Source: an uncultured Opitutia bacterium (GTDB taxonomy: Bacteria; Verrucomicrobiota; Verrucomicrobiia; Opitutales; Opitutaceae). From it: a stretch of 64,000 bases of DNA. Where the stretch lies: contig CAIUWA010000042.1 in NCBI GenBank assembly GCA_903902745.1, positions 1 to 64,000 of the forward strand. The letters are read 5' to 3'. The stretch's first letter is position 1. Every line of letters starts with the position of its first letter. Below, piece by piece: positions 40,083 through 49,606 of the stretch. A program made the position numbers and the translations under genes. Below the pieces are notes generated by a model, which was given only the letters and a program-made list of their open reading frames with translations, searched no databases and was not told the origin of the DNA.

Positions 40083-41867
40083 TCAGGTGGCTTGGGCGCG
40101 ATAGGCGCGCCAGCCGCCGAAGCGGGTGATGTCCTCGGCGCCGACGAGGGCCGCGGGCTCGCAGAGAAAACCCTTCACGGACTCGCCGGTGGAGAGTGTC
40201 AGCGTGCCGATGCAGAGCGGCGGTGGCACGGCGGCGACAAAACTGCCGAAGGCCGCGGTGGACAATTCCCAAACCTCCAGGGCGATGGCGGCGCCATCGC
40301 CGGCCACGCGCACGAGTCCGGGTTTCGGCGGCGTGGTGTTGGGCAGGGCGTAGAAGCGGTAGACGGGAGCGGTCGTGCCCGTCCAGACGAGGCGGGCGTG
40401 GCGCTCGGTGAGCTGGTGGTTGAGCGGGAGGCCCGTGAGGTGGGCGCCAACGACGGCGAGGCGGATGCAACCGTCGCCGGAGGCGACAACGGGCACGCTG
40501 CCCGGGCCGCTAGGCAGGGAAGTGGAGGTCGCGCCTAGATTTCCGCCGAGGTTCGCGTGCCAGCGGGCGCCGAGGGCGAGGAGATCGAAGTCGCGCCACG
40601 CGGGGGCGATGAAGGTAACGCCCCAGGGCACGCCGTCGCGGCGCAGGCCGGCGGGGACGGCGAGGGCGGAGAGATCGAGGAGGTTGACGAAGTTGGTGTA
40701 GGTGCCGAGGCGGGAGTTGAGAAGGAGCGGCTCCGCGGCGACCTCGGCGACGGTGTAGGGGCGCGGGGCGGTGGGGAGGAGCAGCACGTCCATTTTCTCC
40801 CACTCGGCGGCGGCACGGCGCGCGAGCGCGGCGAGCCGGTAGAAACCCTCGAAGGTGTCGGCGGCGCCGAGCGACCGGGCGGCCTCGACAATCTGGCGGG
40901 TGACGGGAAGGAAGGCGTCGGCGTGTCCTTGGTGAAAGGCGCGGAGCGCGGCCCAGCGCTCGGCGATCCATGGGCCCTGGTAGAGGAGTGCGGCGGTTTC
41001 GCGGAAGGGGGCGAAATCGATTTCGACCGGCTGCACCCCGAGGGCGGTGAGACGGGTGAGGGAGTCGGAGAAAAGTTTTGCGGCCTCGGGATCGCCGAAG
41101 AATTCGAGATCGCGGGCCGCCGGCACGCCGACGCGGAGGCCGGGCGGAAAAGCCGGGAGGGCGGAGCGGGCGCGCGAGAAGGCGTCGAGGGGATCAAAGG
41201 CCTCGGCGATGCGCTGCACCGCGGCGGCGTCGGCGCAGGTGAGGGCGAAGATCGAGACGCAGTCGAGCGAGCGGCAGGCGGGGACGACGCCGCGGGTGCT
41301 GAGGGCGCCCTTGGTGGGCTTGAGGCCGACGAGGTTGTTGAGGCCGGCGGGCACGCGGCCGGAGCCGGCGGTGTCGGTGCCGAGGGAAAACGAAACGAGC
41401 CCGGCCGCGACGGCGACAGCGGAGCCGCTGCTGGAGCCGCCTGGGATGACGGCGGAATTGAAGGGATTGCGCGGGACGCCGACGAGGCCGGTGGCGAACT
41501 GGTCGAGGTTGGTCTTGCCGACGGGGATGGCGCCGGCGGCGATGAGACGCTGCACGATGGCCGCGGAAACGGTGGGCGTGTAGGCAAACGCGGGGCACGC
41601 AGCGGTGGTGGGTGCGCCGGCGAGATCGAGGTTGTCCTTGATCGCGAAGGGAACGCCGTAGAGCGGAAGCGCGGTGCGGTCGAGGGACTCGAGGCGGCGG
41701 GCGTGGGCGAGGAGTTCGGCGCGCGGGAGCAGGTGAATCCACACGGCGGGGTTCGCGTGTGCCTCGATCCGGCCGAGGATTTCCCCGACGAGGGCGGTGG
41801 GCGTGAGCGTGCCGGCGGCGTAGGCGGCGCGGAGAGCGGCGAAGTCGAGGGAGAGAGCGGACGGCAT
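40083..41867 (-). CDS. atzF: Allophanate hydrolase, AtzF type
   Basis: Amidase-signature enzyme that converts allophanate to ammonia and carbon dioxide, the last step of biuret, cyanurate and carboxyurea breakdown. At 594 residues it matches full-length AtzF (about 605): an amidase domain to about 430 with Lys77 (AIKDNL), cis-Ser in GGSSSGS (about 145) and nucleophile Ser169 in GTDTAGSG. The C-terminal domain (about 440-594, including GWRAYR at the end) is specific to allophanate hydrolases. It is the last gene of the operon, 5 bp after the permease. Confidence 0.93.
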   Translation of the reverse strand: MPSALSLDFAALRAAYAAGTLTPTALVGEILGRIEAHANPAVWIHLLPRAELLAHARRLESLDRTALPLYGVPFAIKDNLDLAGAPTTAACPAFAYTPTVSAAIVQRLIAAGAIPVGKTNLDQFATGLVGVPRNPFNSAVIPGGSSSGSAVAVAAGLVSFSLGTDTAGSGRVPAGLNNLVGLKPTKGALSTRGVVPACRSLDCVSIFALTCADAAAVQRIAEAFDPLDAFSRARSALPAFPPGLRVGVPAARDLEFFGDPEAAKLFSDSLTRLTALGVQPVEIDFAPFRETAALLYQGPWIAERWAALRAFHQGHADAFLPVTRQIVEAARSLGAADTFEGFYRLAALARRAAAEWEKMDVLLLPTAPRPYTVAEVAAEPLLLNSRLGTYTNFVNLLDLSALAVPAGLRRDGVPWGVTFIAPAWRDFDLLALGARWHANLGGNLGATSTSLPSGPGSVPVVASGDGCIRLAVVGAHLTGLPLNHQLTERHARLVWTGTTAPVYRFYALPNTTPPKPGLVRVAGDGAAIALEVWELSTAAFGSFVAAVPPPLCIGTLTLSTGESVKGFLCEPAALVGAEDITRFGGWRAYRAQAT

Positions 41868-41872
41868 CAGGC

Positions 41873-43447
41873 TCAGGCGTGGTGGTGGGCCGTCTCGGGC
41901 GGGCGCGGCGGCGGTGGAGCCCACTTTGCGAGGGCGGCGAGCGTCAGCGCAACCAAAAGGTAGCTGCCTGCGACGGCGGGGGATTCCGCGAAGCCGATGC
42001 GCTCGCCGTGCATGAAGCCGAGAAACGTGAGGCCCGCGCCCACCGCGGCGAAGGCCGCGGCCCGCCAGAGCTGGCGCTCGATAATGAAGACGGTGATCGC
42101 AGCGAGCACGAGGCCGGCGAGCACCGCGCCGCTGCCGAGCACCTCGAGCCCGTGAAGCAGCACCCCTTCGTCGCCGAGCTTGGCGAGGAGGGCGTCGTTC
42201 ACCGTCGCACCGGAGGCGTTGAGCGTGCCCTTCACCATGCCGAGGGCCCAAGCGGCGAGATTGGGCACGAGCGCGAGGATTACGGCCGGGGCATGGCGCG
42301 AGGGTGTTTCCTGAAAGGCCTGCGAGCCGATGAGCATCCCGATGTAGAGGAGAATCGGGAGGATCGCGACAACCGGGACGAGGGCGAGGATCACGGGCAC
42401 GATGCCCAGCCAGCAGAGCACGATTACCATGACGCCGGTCGCCATCGAGTAGCCGATGCGCCCACCCATCGCCTTCCAGCCGGGATGGCCGATGTAGACG
42501 GCGAGGATGAACGGATTGCCCACCAGGCAGCCGAGGAAGCTGATCACGCCGTCGGCGCAGAGCACGCGCGTGGTCGGGTAGCTGTCGCCGGCGGCGGCGG
42601 CGCTCTCGACGTTGTCGATGGCCTCGACGAGGTCGTAGATGCCGAACGGAATTGCGGTCACGAGGAGGACGCCGAGAAATTCGAAGCCGGAGAACACGTG
42701 GCCGACCACGGGCAGCGGCACGCGGAAGCCGAAATGGGTGAACGACTCCGTGAGCCCGGCGAGCGAGAGGCCGCCATAGCCGGGGCCGAAGAGGGTCGAG
42801 CCCCACGCGATGAGGGTGCCGGCGATGATCGCGACGAGGCCGGCGGGCAGGCCGCGGTAGAAGCGCACGCCGCCCAGCCAGTTGGCCATGAGCAGCACGA
42901 AGCACACGAGGCCGATGCCCGGCGTGAGATACATCATCAGGGCGGGGCGCATCGAGATGAACGTGATCGACACGCCGGCGAGCGCGCCGAGGAGCGCGGC
43001 GCGGGGCGTGACCTTGCGCACCCAGCGGCCAATGAAGCCGCCGATCATCAGCACGACGCTCTGGATGCAGACCCAGGTGAGGCCGGCCTCCCAGGCCTTG
43101 ATCGGGTCGCCGGTCTTCAGCTTGATCGGCAGCATGATCACAAAGACGACGATGAACATGTGGCCGACGCCCGGTCCGGACGGCATGGCGCACACATCGT
43201 CCCGGCCGGTGCGCTTGGCGAGGTCGCGCGCGAGCCAGGCATAGTAGATCGCGGAGAGTCCGAGCGTCAGGCCGGTCGCGGGCAGGATACGGCCGAAGAC
43301 GAGCTCGTCGGGAAACCCGAGCACGAAGCGCAGGAGCCCGGTGAGCGTGAGCAGATTGACAAGGATGTTGGTGCCGAAGCCGAAGAAGGCGTTCCAGTCG
43401 CCGGGAACCCAGAGCTTGGGCCGGAACAAGGCGGGCGCGGTGGTCAT
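41873..43447 (-). CDS. NCS2-family nucleobase/ureide permease
   Basis: An inner-membrane permease of 524 residues with about 13 hydrophobic segments. Family text includes GFGTNILVNLLTLTGLLRFVLGFP near the N-terminus, TAIPFGIYDLVEAIDNVESA (about 265-284; the ENxES-like site binds substrate in NCS2 proteins) and GCLVGNPFILAVYIGHP (about 304-320). NCS2 carriers take uracil, xanthine, urate and similar rings. Position between the cysteine hydrolase (41 bp) and AtzF (5 bp) indicates that it imports the substrate of this operon. Confidence 0.88.
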   Translation of the reverse strand: MTTAPALFRPKLWVPGDWNAFFGFGTNILVNLLTLTGLLRFVLGFPDELVFGRILPATGLTLGLSAIYYAWLARDLAKRTGRDDVCAMPSGPGVGHMFIVVFVIMLPIKLKTGDPIKAWEAGLTWVCIQSVVLMIGGFIGRWVRKVTPRAALLGALAGVSITFISMRPALMMYLTPGIGLVCFVLLMANWLGGVRFYRGLPAGLVAIIAGTLIAWGSTLFGPGYGGLSLAGLTESFTHFGFRVPLPVVGHVFSGFEFLGVLLVTAIPFGIYDLVEAIDNVESAAAAGDSYPTTRVLCADGVISFLGCLVGNPFILAVYIGHPGWKAMGGRIGYSMATGVMVIVLCWLGIVPVILALVPVVAILPILLYIGMLIGSQAFQETPSRHAPAVILALVPNLAAWALGMVKGTLNASGATVNDALLAKLGDEGVLLHGLEVLGSGAVLAGLVLAAITVFIIERQLWRAAAFAAVGAGLTFLGFMHGERIGFAESPAVAGSYLLVALTLAALAKWAPPPPRPPETAHHHA

Positions 43448-43488
43448 GAATTTTTGATTTTAGAAATCCCGATTTTCGATTTCGGAAA

Positions 43489-44217
43489 TTACCCGGCCGC
43501 GAGGGCGGCGAGGATTTTATCGGAGCGGGAAACCCAGCCGAAGATCCCGTCCTGGGCGGAAATCATCCGGATGGCGGCGGTGTGGAGGTCGGGGAAATAG
43601 GAGCCGACGCAGTCGGCGGGCACGAGGCAGTCGTAGCCGCGGTCGTTGGCCTCGCGCACGGTGGTGTGGACGCAGACCTCGGTGGTGACGCCGATGACGA
43701 CGAGCTGGCGAATCTGCCGGGCCCGCAGCAGGGCGTGGAGATCGGTGGCCCAGAAGGCGCCCTTGCCCGGCTTGTCGATGACCGTCTCATCGGGCAGCGG
43801 CGCCAGCTCGGGGATGATGGCGTGGCCGGGTTCACCGCGGACGAGGAGGCGGCCCATCGGGCCAGGGTCACCAATGCGCACGGTCGGATGGCCGCGATTT
43901 CTTTTGGCGGGCGGAAGATCGGCAAGATCGGCGCGGTGGCCTTCCCGCGTATGGAAGACGGCGAGACCAGCGGAGCGCCAGGCCGCGAGGAGCGTCCGGG
44001 CCGGGGTGATGACCCGGCGCAGGAGGGCGACGTCGTTGCCGAGGGATTCGCCGAAGCCGCCGGGTTCAAGGAAATCGCGCTGCATGTCGATGACGAGCAG
44101 CGCGCAGGTGGCGGGCGTGAGCTCGAAGGCGTAGGGTTCGGCGGAGATCGGAAGCGGCCCGGGGGGCGGGCTAGAGGCGGCGGGAGGCAAGGCGGCACTG
44201 CCGGAGGAGGCGTTCAT
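43489..44217 (-). CDS. Isochorismatase-family cysteine hydrolase, biuret hydrolase (BiuH)-like
   Basis: A 242-residue amidohydrolase. The triad is visible: Asp44 (LVIDMQRDFLEPGG), Lys149 (VIDKPGKGAFW) and Cys182 (VTTEVCVHTT). The middle segment REGHRADLADLPPAKRNRG and IGDPGPMGR agree with biuret amidohydrolases, which turn biuret into allophanate and ammonia; ureidoacrylate hydrolase RutB is a close alternative. Residues 1-28 are a Pro/Ala-rich extension. It overlaps the atzE stop by 4 bp (ATGA), so translation is coupled. Its product would be the substrate of AtzF in the same operon. Confidence 0.85.
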   Translation of the reverse strand: MNASSGSAALPPAASSPPPGPLPISAEPYAFELTPATCALLVIDMQRDFLEPGGFGESLGNDVALLRRVITPARTLLAAWRSAGLAVFHTREGHRADLADLPPAKRNRGHPTVRIGDPGPMGRLLVRGEPGHAIIPELAPLPDETVIDKPGKGAFWATDLHALLRARQIRQLVVIGVTTEVCVHTTVREANDRGYDCLVPADCVGSYFPDLHTAAIRMISAQDGIFGWVSRSDKILAALAAG

Positions 44218-45620
44218 GCGGCGAGGGCGGCGAGTCGGGCCACGGGGGCGGTGCAGACGCCGGATTGTTCAAGCACCCGCGCGACCCGCAGCAGCCCGGC
44301 CTCGCCCCACGGGGCGGCGATGAGCTGCACGCCGATCGGCAGCGGGCCGACGTGGTGCACGGGGGCGGCGACGACGGGAAGGCCGATAAAGGAGATGGGT
44401 TGTGTGAAAAGGCCGAGGTTGGGGCGGACGGGCATTTCGACCCCCTCCAGCGACATCGTTTCCTGCCCGATCAGGGTAGCGGACACGGGCGTAGCCGGGG
44501 CGAGGAGGATGTCGGTGTGGCGGAAAAGTTCACTGACCTGCGCGCGATACCAGGCCCGGAATTTTTGCGCATGGAGATACCAGGCGGCGGGGAGCAGGGC
44601 GCCCGCGAGGAAGCGGTCGCGCGCGGCGGGGTCGAAATCTGCGGCGCGCCGCCGGAGGCGATCGAGGTGGAACTGGCCGCCCTCACTGGCCGTGATGAGG
44701 TAGGCGGCGGCGCGGGCGCTGGCGGCCTGGGGCAGTTCGACGCGGCGGGCGCCGCCGAGGACCGAGGCGACGGCGGCGACGGCGGAGCGGGCCTGGACCG
44801 GGCAGTTTTTCTCGAAGTAGCCGCCGAGCACCGCCACGCGCAGGCCACCGAGTCCGGCCTCGAGCGAGGGAAAGGCGGGTTCGGCGGCGCGCTGGGCGCA
44901 GGCATGATCGCGGGGATCCGGGCCCTGCATGGCGTCGTAGCTGGCGGCGAGATCGGCGACGCTGCGGGCAAACGGACCGATGTGATCCAGGCTGTCGACA
45001 AAAGGAAAACTGCCGGCGCGGGAAAGGCGGCCATAGGTGGGCTTGAGGCCCCAGATGCCGCAGAATGAGGAGGGGACGCGGATGGAGCCGTTGGTGTCGG
45101 TGCCGAGCGAAAGCGGCACGAGGCCGCCGGCGATAGCGGCACCGCAGCCGCCGGAGGAGCCGCCGGCGGAGCGGGCGAGATCGTGGGGATTGCGGGTGGG
45201 GCCGTCGTGGGCGTTGTCGGTGACAAAGTCGTAGGCGTATTCGCCCATGTTGAGCGCGCCGATACAGATGGCGCCGGCGCGCCGGAGACGCTCAACGGCG
45301 GTGGCGTCCTCGATGGCGGGCGGGAGGTCGCGGTTGATTTTTGAGCCGGCCACGGTGACGGTGCCGGCGAGGTCGAAAAGATTTTTCACGGCATAAGGGA
45401 CCCCGGCGAGCGGGCCCGGATCGCGACCGGCGGCGACAGCGGCATCGACCTCGACAGCCTCGGCGCGGGCGCGATCGGTCGTGACGGTGGTGAAGGCGTT
45501 GAGCTGCGCGTGCGTGGCGGCGATGCGATCGAGGGCCAGCTCGGTGATGGCCCGGGCGGTGACCTGGCGCGCCCGGACGGCGGCGGCGAGTTCCAGCGCG
45601 GTGGCCGAGGCGAGGTTCAT
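44214..45620 (-). CDS. atzE: 1-carboxybiuret hydrolase subunit AtzE-like amidase
   Basis: Amidase-signature enzyme of 468 residues with Lys79 (AVKNLFD), cis-Ser near 155 (GGSSGG) and nucleophile Ser179 (GTDTNGSI). The GALNMGEYAYDFVTDNAHDGPTRNPHD region is split here at about 121-147 and is typical of the AtzE/HpxY group. AtzE removes ammonia from 1-carboxybiuret and needs the small AtzG subunit; its gene neighbour here encodes an AtzH-AtzG fusion, overlapping by 4 bp. In Klebsiella the related HpxXY act on oxalurate, which is the main alternative. Confidence 0.88.
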   Translation of the reverse strand: MNLASATALELAAAVRARQVTARAITELALDRIAATHAQLNAFTTVTTDRARAEAVEVDAAVAAGRDPGPLAGVPYAVKNLFDLAGTVTVAGSKINRDLPPAIEDATAVERLRRAGAICIGALNMGEYAYDFVTDNAHDGPTRNPHDLARSAGGSSGGCGAAIAGGLVPLSLGTDTNGSIRVPSSFCGIWGLKPTYGRLSRAGSFPFVDSLDHIGPFARSVADLAASYDAMQGPDPRDHACAQRAAEPAFPSLEAGLGGLRVAVLGGYFEKNCPVQARSAVAAVASVLGGARRVELPQAASARAAAYLITASEGGQFHLDRLRRRAADFDPAARDRFLAGALLPAAWYLHAQKFRAWYRAQVSELFRHTDILLAPATPVSATLIGQETMSLEGVEMPVRPNLGLFTQPISFIGLPVVAAPVHHVGPLPIGVQLIAAPWGEAGLLRVARVLEQSGVCTAPVARLAALAA

Positions 45621-46192
45621 GGCGTGAAGATGGGGGCGGGCTCGATGTCGTCGGGGAGAGCGAAGGCGAGCAACGGCGCGGCGATGGCGGCGGAGCGCTG
45701 GAGATTTTGCACGACGCCGGGCCGGTGCGCGGGCGCGAGGGGGAGTCCCAGGGCGGCCGCGGCTTGGTCGGCGTAGGCGTCCCACGAACCGGCGGCAGGC
45801 AGGGCGACCAGGGCGTTGGAGACGTGGGCGGCGACGATCCGCCAGCCGAGGCCGGGGAAGCGGGTCCAGACCTGGGACTGGCGGCTGTGCCGCGGCTGTC
45901 CGGCGACCTTTTGCGAAAACTCGCACATCACGGAGACGAAGTTTTCGCCGAGCGCGAGAATGGTGCGGCGGAGCAGGACGCGGTCGGTGTAAACAGGGAC
46001 GTTTTTTTGGCGGTAGGCGGCGAGGTCCTCGGCGCCATAAAGATGCTCGTTGACTCCGAAGCGGACGATGTGGGGGGAGTCCCAGAAAAACCCCGTGAGC
46101 GCCGGGACATCATTGGCGGCGAGGGCGCGCTCGTAGGCGTCGTGCAGCGCGGCAATCTCGGCGATGACAGCGGGGTCGTTGACGATAGGCAT
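45617..46192 (-). CDS. AtzH-AtzG fusion (DUF3225 plus DUF4089)
   Basis: A 191-residue protein that joins two proteins usually made separately. Residues 1-130 have the NTF2/SnoaL-like DUF3225 pattern of AtzH/HpxZ (FFWDSPHIVRFGVNEHLYG at about 35-53, GWRIVAAHVS at about 116-125). A LPAAGS linker follows, then residues 137-191 match the AtzG/HpxX small subunit (DUF4089): WDAYADQAAAALGLPL, HRPGVVQNLQR and LPDDIEPAPIF. AtzG scaffolds AtzE, and AtzH is reported to process 1,3-dicarboxyurea to allophanate. The stop overlaps the atzE start (ATGA). The fusion would tether the two successive activities. Confidence 0.85.
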   Translation of the reverse strand: MPIVNDPAVIAEIAALHDAYERALAANDVPALTGFFWDSPHIVRFGVNEHLYGAEDLAAYRQKNVPVYTDRVLLRRTILALGENFVSVMCEFSQKVAGQPRHSRQSQVWTRFPGLGWRIVAAHVSNALVALPAAGSWDAYADQAAAALGLPLAPAHRPGVVQNLQRSAAIAAPLLAFALPDDIEPAPIFTP

Positions 46193-46275
46193 CGGGGAAC
46201 CGTTAGCAGAAGGCGGGCCGGGGTAGGGGCCCCCGCACCGGCCGGGCCCGGTGCAGGGCGGAAAGAGAGATCAAC

Positions 46276-48705
46276 TCACCATTTGAAGGCGACGCTGAGA
46301 TCGACGGTGGGGCCCTCGCTGGGGCTGATGAACGTGTCCCAGAAGAGGAACTGGGGCGTATAGTATTTGGCGTCGAGAATGTTGGTGCCGTTGAGGCGGT
46401 AGGACCAGTGGCCCTTTTTGTAGAAGAGTGCAGCGCGCGTGACGAAATAGGAGGGCAGGCGGATCTGCTGGAGATAGCCGGCATACATCGACGAGACGTA
46501 GCTGCCGCCGAGCGAGCCGCCCCAGCCGTTGGCGCCGGTGTAGGTGGCGCCGCCAGAGAAGACCTCGCGGGGCGTCGGGGTTTCGAGGTTGGACGGGACC
46601 CCGATGAGGGCGCCCACGGCCTCGAAGCGCCCGCCGTAAAAGTTGGCGGGATTGAGACCGAGATAGGAAGGCGGCACGCCGAGGAAGAAGGGCGAGTTGA
46701 GCAGGATCGTCTTCTGCCACGTGGCGGCGCCCGTGAAGCTCAGCGCCTTCGAGGGGGCATAGCGGACCTCGACATCGACGCCGTTCGACTTGTAGCGGTC
46801 AAAGGAGCCGGCTTGCGGGTTGAACGCGGTCTTTTCCTGCTGATAGTAAGCGAAGGTGGCGTAGAGCTTCTTCTGCAAGAGGCTGCCCTTGACGCCGGCC
46901 TCGGTAATTTTCGACTTCTGCAGCCAGGTGTCGCCGCCGAGGTTAAGGACGTCGATCATGCCGCCCTGGCCGAGTTCAACATAGCTGGAGCGGGCATAGG
47001 TGAGGTAAGGGGTGAAGCCGCTCGGGGAGGTATAGCTCAGGCTGGCGTTGTAGGTGAACGCGCCCTTGCTGGCGGAGACCTTCGAGAAGACGGCGTTGAG
47101 GTCGGTGCCGTTGGTGGTGGCGTGGTAGTTGTCCCACCGGCCGCTGAGGATGAGGCTGAATTTTTCCGCGAAGGTGGAATCGACGAGGCCGAAGACGCCG
47201 AAGTCAGAGGAGGTGCCGATCTGCCGCCAGTTGTAGGGGACATTGCCGGTGCCCGTTTGGGCGCCCTCGAAGCGGTCGTTGCCAGTCGGTCCGACGGAGA
47301 GATCGCGGCGGTCGAGGATCTGGTAGCCGCGGCCGCGGGATTCGCGCTCGTCGCCGCTGGTGAACCGGTAGGAGGCGCCGAAAATATTGTCCAGGACAGT
47401 GCCCTTCGAGGGCTCGACCTTGTAGTGAAGCGTGGTCTTGTTTTCGGCGACGACATCGACGTAGTCGGCGGTGAACCCATAGCTGGAGTATTTCGTGTGG
47501 TTCATCGAGTCGTAGAACGACTGGTTCTTCAGGGTGAGGTTGTCGCTGAACGTCTTGGTGATGTCGAAAAACCCGGTGAGGGCGTCGGTGCGCGAGAAGT
47601 CCAGCGTTTCCGCCTGAATGGTGTGATGGCTGAGCTTGACCGTGCGGACCGTCGCGGGGTCGAGCGCCATGGCGGCCAGCTGGTTCGCCGAGAACGCGCC
47701 GACCGGGAAGGGATTGGCGAACGCGAACTGGTCGAGGGCGTAGGCGCTGACCTCGGAGGGGGAGAGGAAGCCGTCCTTGTTGGTGTCGAGGTTGAGCTTC
47801 GGCACGCCGGCGAGGTACGTGCCGTCGCCGTCGATCATGGCCTGGGTGACGCGGTTCCAGCCGAGACTCTGGTTGAGCTTGGCCCACTGGACCATGCCGC
47901 CGTATTCGAGCAGCACGCTGTCGGAGAGCTCGGTGTCGATGGCGAGCTGGCCGAGGATGTCCTTGTTGTAGATCTTGTCGTAGTAGCTTTTCGAGTCCTC
48001 GTCCTGCAGGAAGAAGTAGGCGCCGGAGCGCTTGCCCGCGAGGGTGAAGGGCGTGCCGTACTCGAGGCTCGCCATTTTCTTGCCGTAGGTGCCGACTGTC
48101 GAGCTGATGACGCCGGTGGGCTTGTCGATGAACTTGGCGGTTTTGCTCTTCGCGGTCTTCGGGATGAAGTTGAGGATGCCGCCGATCTTGCCGCCGCCGT
48201 AGACCGGGGGGGGCGGGCCCTTGATGATTTCCACGAAATCGGTGCCGGCGATCGGGGTGGGGAAGTTGCCGCGATTCTCGACGCGGCGGAAACCGCGGAA
48301 GAAATTGTCGGCGCGCTCGCCGCGGACGTCGAGGGCGCCGGGGACGCCGAAATAATTGCCGGTGAACGAGCCCGCCGTGATGGCGACAAAATCGTTGACC
48401 GTGCGGATGCTGTAGAGATCGGTGAGCGAGCTCTCGATCAGCGTAATCGACCGCGGGGTGTCCAGCAGGGACCGGGACGTGCCGAAGACGCTCCCGGTTT
48501 CGCGGGTTGGGAGGACGTCGTAGATGTCGGCCTCCTTGGCGGAAGTGACGAATTTTTCGAGCTCCACGACTGAATCGGAGGCGGGCGGCGTTTGGGCGCG
48601 GGCCGGGAGCAGAGCGGCCAGGCTGCCGAGGAGGAGAAGGGTGGCGGAGAGGTGGGGCCGGGCGGGAGCGCGGCGCGAAGGGCGGGAGGAAGGCGAAACA
48701 TTCAT
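46276..48705 (-). CDS. TonB-dependent outer-membrane receptor
   Basis: An 809-residue outer-membrane transporter. Start ATG 48705 gives a signal peptide ending ALLPARAQ (about residue 29). The plug domain has VVELEKFVTSAKE (TonB-box region), DTPRSITLIESSLTDL, a DFVEIIKGPPPPVYGGG stretch, and GGILNFIPKT. The barrel follows, ending in SVAFKW with a terminal aromatic residue as required for BamA assembly. An EF-hand-like loop DTNKDGFLSPSE is inserted near residue 307. It is the first gene of the ureide operon, 83 bp before the AtzH-AtzG fusion, so its cargo is probably that substrate or a complexed form. Confidence 0.9.
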   Translation of the reverse strand: MNVSPSSRPSRRAPARPHLSATLLLLGSLAALLPARAQTPPASDSVVELEKFVTSAKEADIYDVLPTRETGSVFGTSRSLLDTPRSITLIESSLTDLYSIRTVNDFVAITAGSFTGNYFGVPGALDVRGERADNFFRGFRRVENRGNFPTPIAGTDFVEIIKGPPPPVYGGGKIGGILNFIPKTAKSKTAKFIDKPTGVISSTVGTYGKKMASLEYGTPFTLAGKRSGAYFFLQDEDSKSYYDKIYNKDILGQLAIDTELSDSVLLEYGGMVQWAKLNQSLGWNRVTQAMIDGDGTYLAGVPKLNLDTNKDGFLSPSEVSAYALDQFAFANPFPVGAFSANQLAAMALDPATVRTVKLSHHTIQAETLDFSRTDALTGFFDITKTFSDNLTLKNQSFYDSMNHTKYSSYGFTADYVDVVAENKTTLHYKVEPSKGTVLDNIFGASYRFTSGDERESRGRGYQILDRRDLSVGPTGNDRFEGAQTGTGNVPYNWRQIGTSSDFGVFGLVDSTFAEKFSLILSGRWDNYHATTNGTDLNAVFSKVSASKGAFTYNASLSYTSPSGFTPYLTYARSSYVELGQGGMIDVLNLGGDTWLQKSKITEAGVKGSLLQKKLYATFAYYQQEKTAFNPQAGSFDRYKSNGVDVEVRYAPSKALSFTGAATWQKTILLNSPFFLGVPPSYLGLNPANFYGGRFEAVGALIGVPSNLETPTPREVFSGGATYTGANGWGGSLGGSYVSSMYAGYLQQIRLPSYFVTRAALFYKKGHWSYRLNGTNILDAKYYTPQFLFWDTFISPSEGPTVDLSVAFKW

Positions 48706-48793
48706 CGTGGTGTGGAGCTGGCGGACTTGGAGGGAGGCGCGCGGGTTCACCGCAGGCCAATTCCGCATGAGCAGCCGATGTGCCAGATCGTAT

Positions 48794-48815
48794 GCAATAT
48801 TGTATACAATATTGC
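48794..48815. promoter_or_regulatory. Perfect 22-bp palindrome, likely GntR operator
   Basis: The half-site GCAATATTGTA is followed by its exact reverse complement. The core TTGTATACAA fits the operator form of FCD-type GntR regulators (T-G-T/A-C-A symmetric). It lies 88 bp before the receptor start and 53 bp before the gntR start, so one site could control both directions. It is far richer in A and T than its surroundings. Confidence 0.8.
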
Positions 48816-48868
48816 AGACATGTTCATCGTTGCGTGTTGTGCCCGGTATCCCTTTCGTGCGGCTCACC

Positions 48869-49606
48869 ATGGCCCGCAGCCGTCGTTCCGTTCTCCCCGC
48901 GATCCGGCACCCGAAGACGGGAGTGCGCCTGGGCCGGCAGATTGCGCCGCAGATCCTGCGGACACTGCGCGAGCGGATCCTGAGCTGGCACTATCCGCCC
49001 GGCCGTCATCTCGGCGAGCAGACGTTGTGCGAGGAATTTGCCACGAGCCGGATCCCGGTGCGCGAGGCGCTGCGGGCGCTGGCCGAGCAGGGCCTAGTCG
49101 AGCAGGTGCCGAACCAAGGCTGCTACGTGAAGCAGCCGGATGTCGCGGGCATCCACCATCTCTACGATCACCGGCTCGCGCTCGAATTATATGTCATCGA
49201 GCACCTCGCGGCGATCGGGCCGCCGACGGACCTCGTCGCCCGCATCCGCGCATATTGGGAGCCCTTGCTGAGCATCCGCGCCAATGCGCCGGTGGACGGG
49301 CGTGAACTGGTACGGGCAGACGAGGCTTTTCACCTTGGGTTCGCGCAGGCGCTGGGGAATCCGTCCATCGTCGAGGCGCTGGCGGACATCAACGAGCGGC
49401 TCCGCTTCGTGCGGCTCGTGGTGATCACCACGCCGCATCGCGTGCAGACGACCGCGGGCGAGCACCTGGCGGTGCTGGACGCGGTGGTGAAGCAGGACGC
49501 CGAGGCGGCGCGCCGCGCGCTGCGGCAGAACATCAATCACGCGCGCAACAAGGTGGAGATCGCCCTCGCGAATGCCCTGACGCACGCGCACCAGCGCGTG
49601 CGGTGA
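48869..49606 (+). CDS. GntR-family regulator, FCD subfamily
   Basis: A 245-residue repressor. Residues about 38-90 form the winged helix: LRERILSWHYPPGRHLGEQTL, then TSRIPVREALRALAEQGLVE and NQGCYV. The C-terminal FCD ligand domain has the usual metal ligands as Asp in ADEAFHLGF and His in TAGEHLAVL. ATG 48869 is chosen; GTG 48857 in frame is possible. It is divergent from the receptor and faces the 22-bp palindrome, so it is the probable local regulator of the receptor-AtzHG-AtzE-BiuH-permease-AtzF operon, responding to an organic acid or ureide. Confidence 0.92.
   Translation: MARSRRSVLPAIRHPKTGVRLGRQIAPQILRTLRERILSWHYPPGRHLGEQTLCEEFATSRIPVREALRALAEQGLVEQVPNQGCYVKQPDVAGIHHLYDHRLALELYVIEHLAAIGPPTDLVARIRAYWEPLLSIRANAPVDGRELVRADEAFHLGFAQALGNPSIVEALADINERLRFVRLVVITTPHRVQTTAGEHLAVLDAVVKQDAEAARRALRQNINHARNKVEIALANALTHAHQRVR

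Follow-up and report, generated by a model that had tools for sequence, protein, structure and literature searches.

The subject of this text is the gene cluster at positions 40083–49606 of a 64,000-nucleotide stretch of DNA (the window, by which the whole stretch is meant) from an uncultured bacterium of the Opitutaceae family, whose genome consists of 3.29 Mb in 52 contigs. The cluster comprises an operon of six genes, headed by a gene for a TonB-dependent receptor (TBDR), and a divergent regulator gene. Where loci and family genomes have to be told apart, they carry labels of the type L### and G###, respectively, the window genome being G000. All seven genes are found, and recognisable domains (Pfam or NCBIfam) are present in six of the seven encoded proteins. 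The features are the following.

48869..49606, + strand: divergent GntR-family regulator (Pfam GntR 59.6 bits and FCD 67.9 bits, both above the cut-off)
48793..48816, no strand: perfect 24-bp palindrome with a GTATAC centre, a likely (putative) GntR operator
46276..48705, − strand: TBDR, start inferred (Pfam barrel 68.8 bits, cut-off 27)
45617..46192, − strand: AtzH-AtzG fusion (AtzHG), putative dicarboxyurea decarboxylase plus AtzE partner subunit
44214..45620, − strand: AtzE-type amidase, putative 1-carboxybiuret hydrolase
43489..44217, − strand: putative TrtA-type triuret hydrolase, isochorismatase-like (Pfam Isochorismatase; best PDB match 6xix)
41873..43447, − strand: permease with a UraA/SLC26-like predicted fold, candidate triuret permease
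40083..41867, − strand: AtzF allophanate hydrolase, full length (TIGR02713 778.9 bits; AH_C domain at 469–591)

The genes on the − strand are closely packed. A gap of 83 bp separates the TBDR and AtzHG genes, the AtzHG and AtzE genes overlap by 4 bp, as do the AtzE and hydrolase genes, and the permease and AtzF genes follow after gaps of 41 bp and 5 bp, respectively. Given the TBDR start at 48705, which is picked from the signal-peptide-like N-terminus, the GntR and TBDR genes are 163 bp apart. On the − strand, none of the gaps between operon genes holds a terminator-like site, the three such sites detected on this strand being all intragenic. The coordinates and domains agree with an earlier description of the locus made without database searches (the sequence-only reading), in which a set of genes in one direction, with overlaps or short gaps, was seen next to a divergent GntR gene. 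The operon is genuine, with a conserved order of genes, as is set out below.

The identity of the hydrolase is of central importance for the interpretation of the operon. In the ranking of PDB matches, 6xix (272.9 bits) precedes 6xjm, named 'Biuret hydrolase' (243.8 bits), and 6azo (232.4 bits), where 6XIX is Herbaspirillum TrtA and 6AZO is Rhizobium BiuH (PMC7948467). Six positions tell TrtA from BiuH, which in TrtA are F35, N41, A134, E160, Y187, and I205 (PMC7948467); the window hydrolase agrees with TrtA at each of these (F55, N61, A154, E180, Y207, and I225) and the BiuH-type letter at none. The Asp-Lys-Cys triad (D44, K149, and C182, corresponding to D24, K129, and C162 of TrtA) and the substrate residues Phe, Lys, and Gln (F49, K152, and Q222, corresponding to F29, K132, and Q202) are also kept. 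In the family alignment A1, 16 rows are TrtA-type and 4 rows are BiuH-type at the separating positions. The same separation is seen in a cross-phylum survey of 84 loci, consisting of the best 80 loci among the matches listed and four plasmid stretches: at least five of the six TrtA letters occur in 84 of the 84 rows assigned to TrtA by the best BLAST match (73 of these rows have all six) and in none of the 32 rows assigned in this way to BiuH. This shows that the separating residues mark two discrete hydrolase types, by which the activity as such is not proven. The curated BiuH model of NCBIfam scores 273 bits, below its cut-off of 370, and BiuH identity is rejected on the residues, this score, and the gene context. 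With TrtA as its best PDB match and six of the six diagnostic residues, the protein that was called BiuH-like in the sequence-only reading is instead of the TrtA type, a putative triuret hydrolase. There is one further hydrolase match in the window genome, scoring 17 bits, and no BiuH is found in it.

The product of TrtA is carboxybiuret (PMC7948467), which is hydrolysed by AtzE together with AtzG (PMC6219798). The window AtzE scores 723.2 bits with the NCBIfam AtzE model (cut-off 461), and its best PDB match is 6c62 (536.5 bits). The fusion protein has an AtzH-like Pfam domain (132.2 bits) and an AtzG-like Pfam domain (69.8 bits, cut-off 24), such that the AtzG partner is fused here to AtzH and is not encoded by a separate subunit gene. 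The AtzH half keeps matches to the catalytic residues Tyr22 and Arg46 (Y20 and R44 in the window protein), as well as to Arg63, Arg73, Phe94, Gln106, and Gln108. The addition of AtzH speeds the release of ammonia by AtzF, which its authors read as decarboxylation of dicarboxyurea (PMC6219798). The TIGR02713 score of the window AtzF is well above the cut-off of 511, and its AH_C domain scores 172.7 bits. Judged from these sequence matches, the enzymes very probably form a route from triuret via carboxybiuret, dicarboxyurea, and allophanate to ammonia. The enzymology consists of known parts in a combination that is not found described: the authors of PMC7948467 have already remarked that AtzEG can take the product of TrtA, and no description of TrtA and AtzE/G in one operon was found in the literature searched. 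Triuret degradation is reported to need in general trtA, biuH, trtB, and atzF (PMC12625717), and the window suggests a second route for triuret, one that bypasses BiuH.

As the substrate, triuret is favoured over biuret, given the TrtA type of the hydrolase and the direct use of the TrtA product by AtzE and AtzG. A biuret or cyanurate pathway would be suggested by the homology of the hydrolase to BiuH and by AtzE, AtzG, AtzH, and AtzF being the lower half of the cyanurate operon (PMC6219798), but it is very improbable, considering that TrtA is about 10^4-fold less active on biuret (PMC7948467), that the BiuH-type residues and a BiuH model score above the cut-off are lacking, and that no AtzD is found. 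A first search for AtzD, in which the controls were silent, was repeated with G187 as a positive control, which was positive twice; there is no PF09663 match in the 25 other genomes, being the window genome and 24 other genomes with TrtA or the TBDR. The cyanurate reading is rejected on this result, and the statement of the sequence-only reading that a ring-opening AtzD is not present is borne out genome-wide. AtzF is found in 23 of these 25 genomes, the two misses being genomes that are 89% and 78% complete.

Two other assignments of the enzymes have been considered. The fusion protein also matches HpxZ (113.1 bits) and HpxX (28.9 bits), as would be expected if AtzHG and AtzE were an Hpx-type oxalurate module in a locus for purine breakdown; these scores are however below the cut-offs (135 and 70, respectively), the module is flanked by TrtA and AtzF, which fit carboxybiuret, and no ggt/HpxW-like gene is seen among the operon genes, making this assignment highly unlikely. 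Another possibility is that the hydrolase has a different, related linear ureide as its substrate. Triuret occurs as an impurity of urea fertiliser and as a product of uric-acid oxidation, its natural sources being poorly known (PMC7948467), and a TBDR would suit a bulkier substrate. Herbaspirillum TrtA is however highly specific, Table 2 of PMC7948467 listing tetrauret, pentauret, and methylene diurea as not detected as substrates, and the active-site positions that were checked in the window protein match those of this enzyme, so that another ureide seems improbable. Triuret as the starting compound of the enzyme route is also partly in agreement with the sequence-only reading, in which biuret or a larger ureide was proposed to be degraded with release of all nitrogen: the full release of nitrogen and the larger ureide, with triuret among the compounds suggested for growth tests, fit the TrtA-type hydrolase, and biuret fits it less well.

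Among 252 genomes of the family, searched with a threshold of E ≤ 1e-30, a hydrolase match is present in 24. In 19 of these, including the window genome, the GntR gene is divergent from TBDR, AtzHG, AtzE, and hydrolase genes that follow in this order. The 18 further loci share this order, some being ended by contig edges (L052 and L055 stop inside the hydrolase gene), and the GntR gene is at the same place in all 18. G246 has the order in part (GntR, TBDR, AtzHG, and AtzE), its contig stopping after AtzE. Four genomes (G214, G209, G211, and G219) have both TrtA-type and BiuH-type proteins; in their stretches, which for G209 are short contigs, no AtzHG or AtzE is found, and the four genomes as a whole have no match to this TBDR at E ≤ 1e-80. 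Such a pattern would be predicted for BiuH and AtzEGH as alternative continuations of the TrtA step. The hydrolases of G124 are of neither clear type. The search for neighbourhoods with receptor, AtzE, and AtzF, which the sequence-only reading had proposed, finds receptor and AtzE together in the 18 further loci, AtzF following directly after the permease on the same strand only in 5 of them (L032, L034, L038, L041, and L045). AtzF has the opposite orientation in L047, is not at that place in seven loci with room for it (L036, L037, L040, L042, L044, L046, and L048), and its position cannot be judged in five loci that end early (L031, L033, L039, L052, and L055).

The TBDR is a regular member of this operon, which supports the sequence-only reading. 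Its plug domain scores 22.6 bits in one search (cut-off 23.9) and 27.3 bits, above the cut-off, in another. Close orthologues are found in 20 of the 252 family genomes (the 19 with the ordered genes, including the window genome, and G246), those outside the window being 59–82% identical, and all 20 sit in the operon; identity then drops to 40% for the next TBDR. Of 17 plug-domain matches in the window genome, the best paralogue shares 34% identity along part of its length. Among 387 sampled genomes of the phylum, four have a match to the TBDR, all within the Opitutaceae family, and a search of viral contigs confirmed nothing. The linkage of the TBDR to the operon is strong. The palindrome at 48793–48816 overlaps a promoter-like match at 48826–48799 (− strand), this region having two promoter-like matches with 0.7 expected. 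GTATAC occurs between the GntR and TBDR genes in 18 of 21 equivalent regions (a plain count; the misses are L031, L045, and L080), and TGTATACA occurs in 12 of the 21 regions and nowhere else in the DNA examined of those 12 loci. In the window alone, TTGTATACAA is found once when allowing at most one mismatch, with 0.13 expected, which is weak, as this is reached by 11 of 100 shuffles; the weight of the palindrome lies in its recurrence across loci and not in the count for the window. Because the palindrome recurs in the GntR–TBDR gap, it argues for a predicted joint control of the TBDR and the enzymes by the GntR protein.

The permease has no Pfam match at E 0.1 and no NCBIfam model match, and nothing is found in a PDB sequence search with its profile. 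A model predicted from 54 sequences (alignment A4) has a predicted local distance difference test score (pLDDT) of 87.1, and its top Foldseek matches are SVCT1, prestin, BicA, UraA, and SLC26 proteins (E 3e-8 to 1e-6, TM about 0.5). When compared with structures of the UraA-type 7+7 fold, the model matches SVCT1, UraA, and UapA and equally SLC26 proteins and BicA. The NCS2 label of the sequence-only reading may fit the kind of fold that is predicted and does not fit the sequence family: a match to PF00860 (Xan_ur_permease, NCS2) is lacking in all 54 members at E values up to 1, the weak matches being scattered, and sequence gives no support for NCS2 membership. The permease gene follows TrtA on the same strand, at a distance of at most 600 bp, in 63 of the 80 best loci of the survey, from many phyla; in the record of the Terrarubrum flagellatum plasmid (L061), it is labelled 'regulator'. 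Close orthologues (at least 66% identical) are found in 22 of the 252 family genomes, 20 of which have a hydrolase match. The exceptions are G246, with permease pieces on two contigs, and G174, in which a permease that is 66% identical is encoded at G174:C264:20694-22229. The hydrolase genomes that have no permease match are G055 (contig end), G124, G211, and G219. Permease matches at E ≤ 1e-30 are present in 59 of the 252 genomes, mostly with 30–41% identity, and the permease family is therefore wider than triuret. As judged from the predicted fold and the location, the protein is a candidate triuret permease, and it offers a candidate permease family for this compound outside the coverage of Pfam.

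We infer the activities, the repression, and both transport substrates as follows. The GntR-type regulator would bind the palindrome and repress the operon until an inducer appears. Triuret would then be carried across the outer membrane by the TBDR and across the inner membrane by the permease with the UraA/SLC26 fold. TrtA would strip a terminal amide, generating 1-carboxybiuret and NH3, and AtzE with the AtzG half would convert carboxybiuret into 1,3-dicarboxyurea and NH3. The AtzH half would decarboxylate 1,3-dicarboxyurea to allophanate, from which AtzF would generate ammonia and CO2. That the whole operon scavenges triuret as a nitrogen source, with triuret being the cargo of the TBDR, is given a probability of about 60%, and it would propose small ureides, perhaps also purines, as a substrate class for TBDRs.

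Several observations weigh against this reading. The two other genomes of the genus of the window have no hydrolase match, stops or frame breaks interrupt genes in L039 and L045, and in many relatives AtzF is not part of the operon. Two pocket residues of AtzH, Arg66 and Arg96, are replaced in the fusion protein (N64 and Q94). The distance matrices of six operon genes in 13 loci correlate only moderately when the TBDR is compared with the others (r 0.39–0.51, values matched by 0–48 of 2000 permutations; shared genome ancestry confounds this comparison, which has little weight). Outside the family survey, a TBDR is found in 7 of the 84 loci, at a recovery of 9 of 12 left-out test TBDRs, and 6 of the 7 are of the Opitutaceae type and look like the same contigs as the family loci. 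Triuret is small, and most TrtA bacteria seem to manage without a TBDR, none being detected at most of the TrtA loci examined. Among solved TBDRs, those nearest to the window receptor are siderophore receptors, for example that for enantio-pyochelin, by distant profile similarity only. It is conceivable, in view of the receptor structures, the size of triuret, and the TrtA loci without a TBDR, that the enzymes degrade triuret and that the TBDR imports a metallophore, a metal-ureide chelate, or a larger precursor that yields triuret, for example an oxidised purine. We regard this as unlikely, given that the 20 close TBDR orthologues are all found in the catabolic operon with the palindrome on the GntR side. 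None of the curated siderophore-receptor models reaches its cut-off (the best score is 48.2 bits, with 904 required), and a strict Fur-box consensus with at most three mismatches has no match in the window, this being a test of low power. A siderophore reading of the TBDR is therefore unsupported by the curated models and the Fur-box scan, the closest solved TBDRs nevertheless being siderophore receptors.

A precedent for a TBDR that serves a small organic nutrient other than a siderophore, B12, or a sugar is DdvT (PMC6874591), its lignin-derived aromatic substrate being of a different class. The open-licence literature that was searched agrees with the sequence-only reading that a TonB receptor is missing from known Atz operons: no paper was found joining TonB with triuret, and among the titles and abstract openings listed for TonB with purine/xanthine, Opitutaceae, ureide, or triazine/biuret, none is on such a receptor. 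The terms 'TonB-dependent', 'cyanuric acid', and 'allophanate' are all contained in PMC6989483, which is on cyanide assimilation.

The operon can be compared with known systems and with the loci of other phyla. In the pathway of Herbaspirillum sp. BH-1 (TrtA, TrtB, BiuH, and AtzF; PMC7948467, PMC12625717), TrtA acts first and AtzF last, as in the window, whereas the window would send carboxybiuret via AtzE/G and AtzH and not via biuret and BiuH, and its operon is led by a TBDR. The AtzG, AtzE, AtzH, and AtzF steps are common to the atzDGEHF operon of Pseudomonas sp. ADP (PMC6219798), in comparison with which the window has TrtA in place of AtzD, fused AtzH and AtzG, and additional TBDR, permease, and GntR genes. 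On the alphaproteobacterial Terrarubrum flagellatum plasmid, genes for GntR, TrtA, the permease, AtzF, AtzG, AtzE, and HpxZ (AtzH) are together, like in the window, but ABC transporter genes take the place of the TBDR gene, and AtzG and AtzH are separate. In the 80 best survey loci, AtzE is near TrtA in 15, BiuH in 31, both in 1, AllFGH-type genes in 11, and none of the three in 26; the distribution of AtzE and BiuH gives a Fisher p of 0.0065, for loci that are not independent and have unequal flanks. All seven TBDR-bearing survey loci have AtzE and an AtzHG match. One of these is L080, on a 6.4-kb contig of an uncultured member of the Acidobacteriia, which has a TBDR (41% identical), AtzHG, AtzE, TrtA, and the start of a permease gene, no GntR gene being detected.

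Other arrangements around TrtA are also seen in the survey. In L063 (E. coli plasmid), L062 (Photobacterium), and L127 (Edwardsiella), the TrtA-type hydrolase gene adjoins genes for FdrA/DUF1116 (AllFGH-type), carbamate kinase, and a cytosine permease. At least 78 Escherichia plasmid records have a hydrolase match, and poultry, which excretes much uric acid in its waste, is the source of many of those listed. In 12 of the 80 loci (L068, L071, L074, L097, L098, L109, L110, L117, L122, L131, L135, and L138), an AtzH-like gene is present with TrtA and BiuH and without AtzE; the AtzH-like protein of these loci may decarboxylate carboxybiuret itself, in the role of TrtB.

The operon receptors belong to a wider group of TBDRs. 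A tree of 47 TBDRs places the 18 operon receptors in one clade (support 0.995), which is joined by the receptor of L080 (1.0), and separates all similar TBDRs from 12 further TBDRs encoded in the window genome (1.0), a split that is partly by construction, as the similar set was chosen by similarity. Three of the four related TBDRs of the window genome adjoin genes for nitrogen compounds, two of them in one region, and the fourth is near a contig end. The neighbouring genes are from GC3-based gene calls, partly by eye, with Pfam searches of 20 chosen proteins. The related TBDR of L060 (G000:C48) is beside xanthine/uracil-type permeases and amidohydrolases, and those of L058 and L059 (G000:C12) are beside formamidase, creatininase, amidohydrolase, BMP, and NMT1 genes. 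Elsewhere, 11 of 13 related-TBDR loci adjoin genes for nitrogen compounds, the exceptions being L176 and L181; several of the 13 are near-duplicates, and L187 is counted on weak amidase matches. Near the 12 further TBDRs that the tree sets apart in the window genome, 0 of 110 proteins match the reference set in a BLAST comparison, which is a contrast and not a test, the set having been made from the positive loci. It is an evenly balanced question whether this clade imports small nitrogen-rich molecules, being triuret in the operon described here and purines, pyrimidines, amides, and perhaps cyanurate or barbiturate in the relatives, whose neighbours include deaminase-type amidohydrolases; Opitutaceae would then draw on scarce organic nitrogen through active transport at the outer membrane. 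If this is true, a substrate class open to testing becomes available for many unassigned Opitutaceae receptors. The receptors of L185 and L176 are placed closest to the triuret group in the tree. In L185 (G187:C12), an AtzD-family ring opener is encoded at L185:12401-13492, beside a related TBDR, a xanthine/uracil permease, and an amidase, and it is possible that this is a TonB-linked cyanurate or barbiturate locus.

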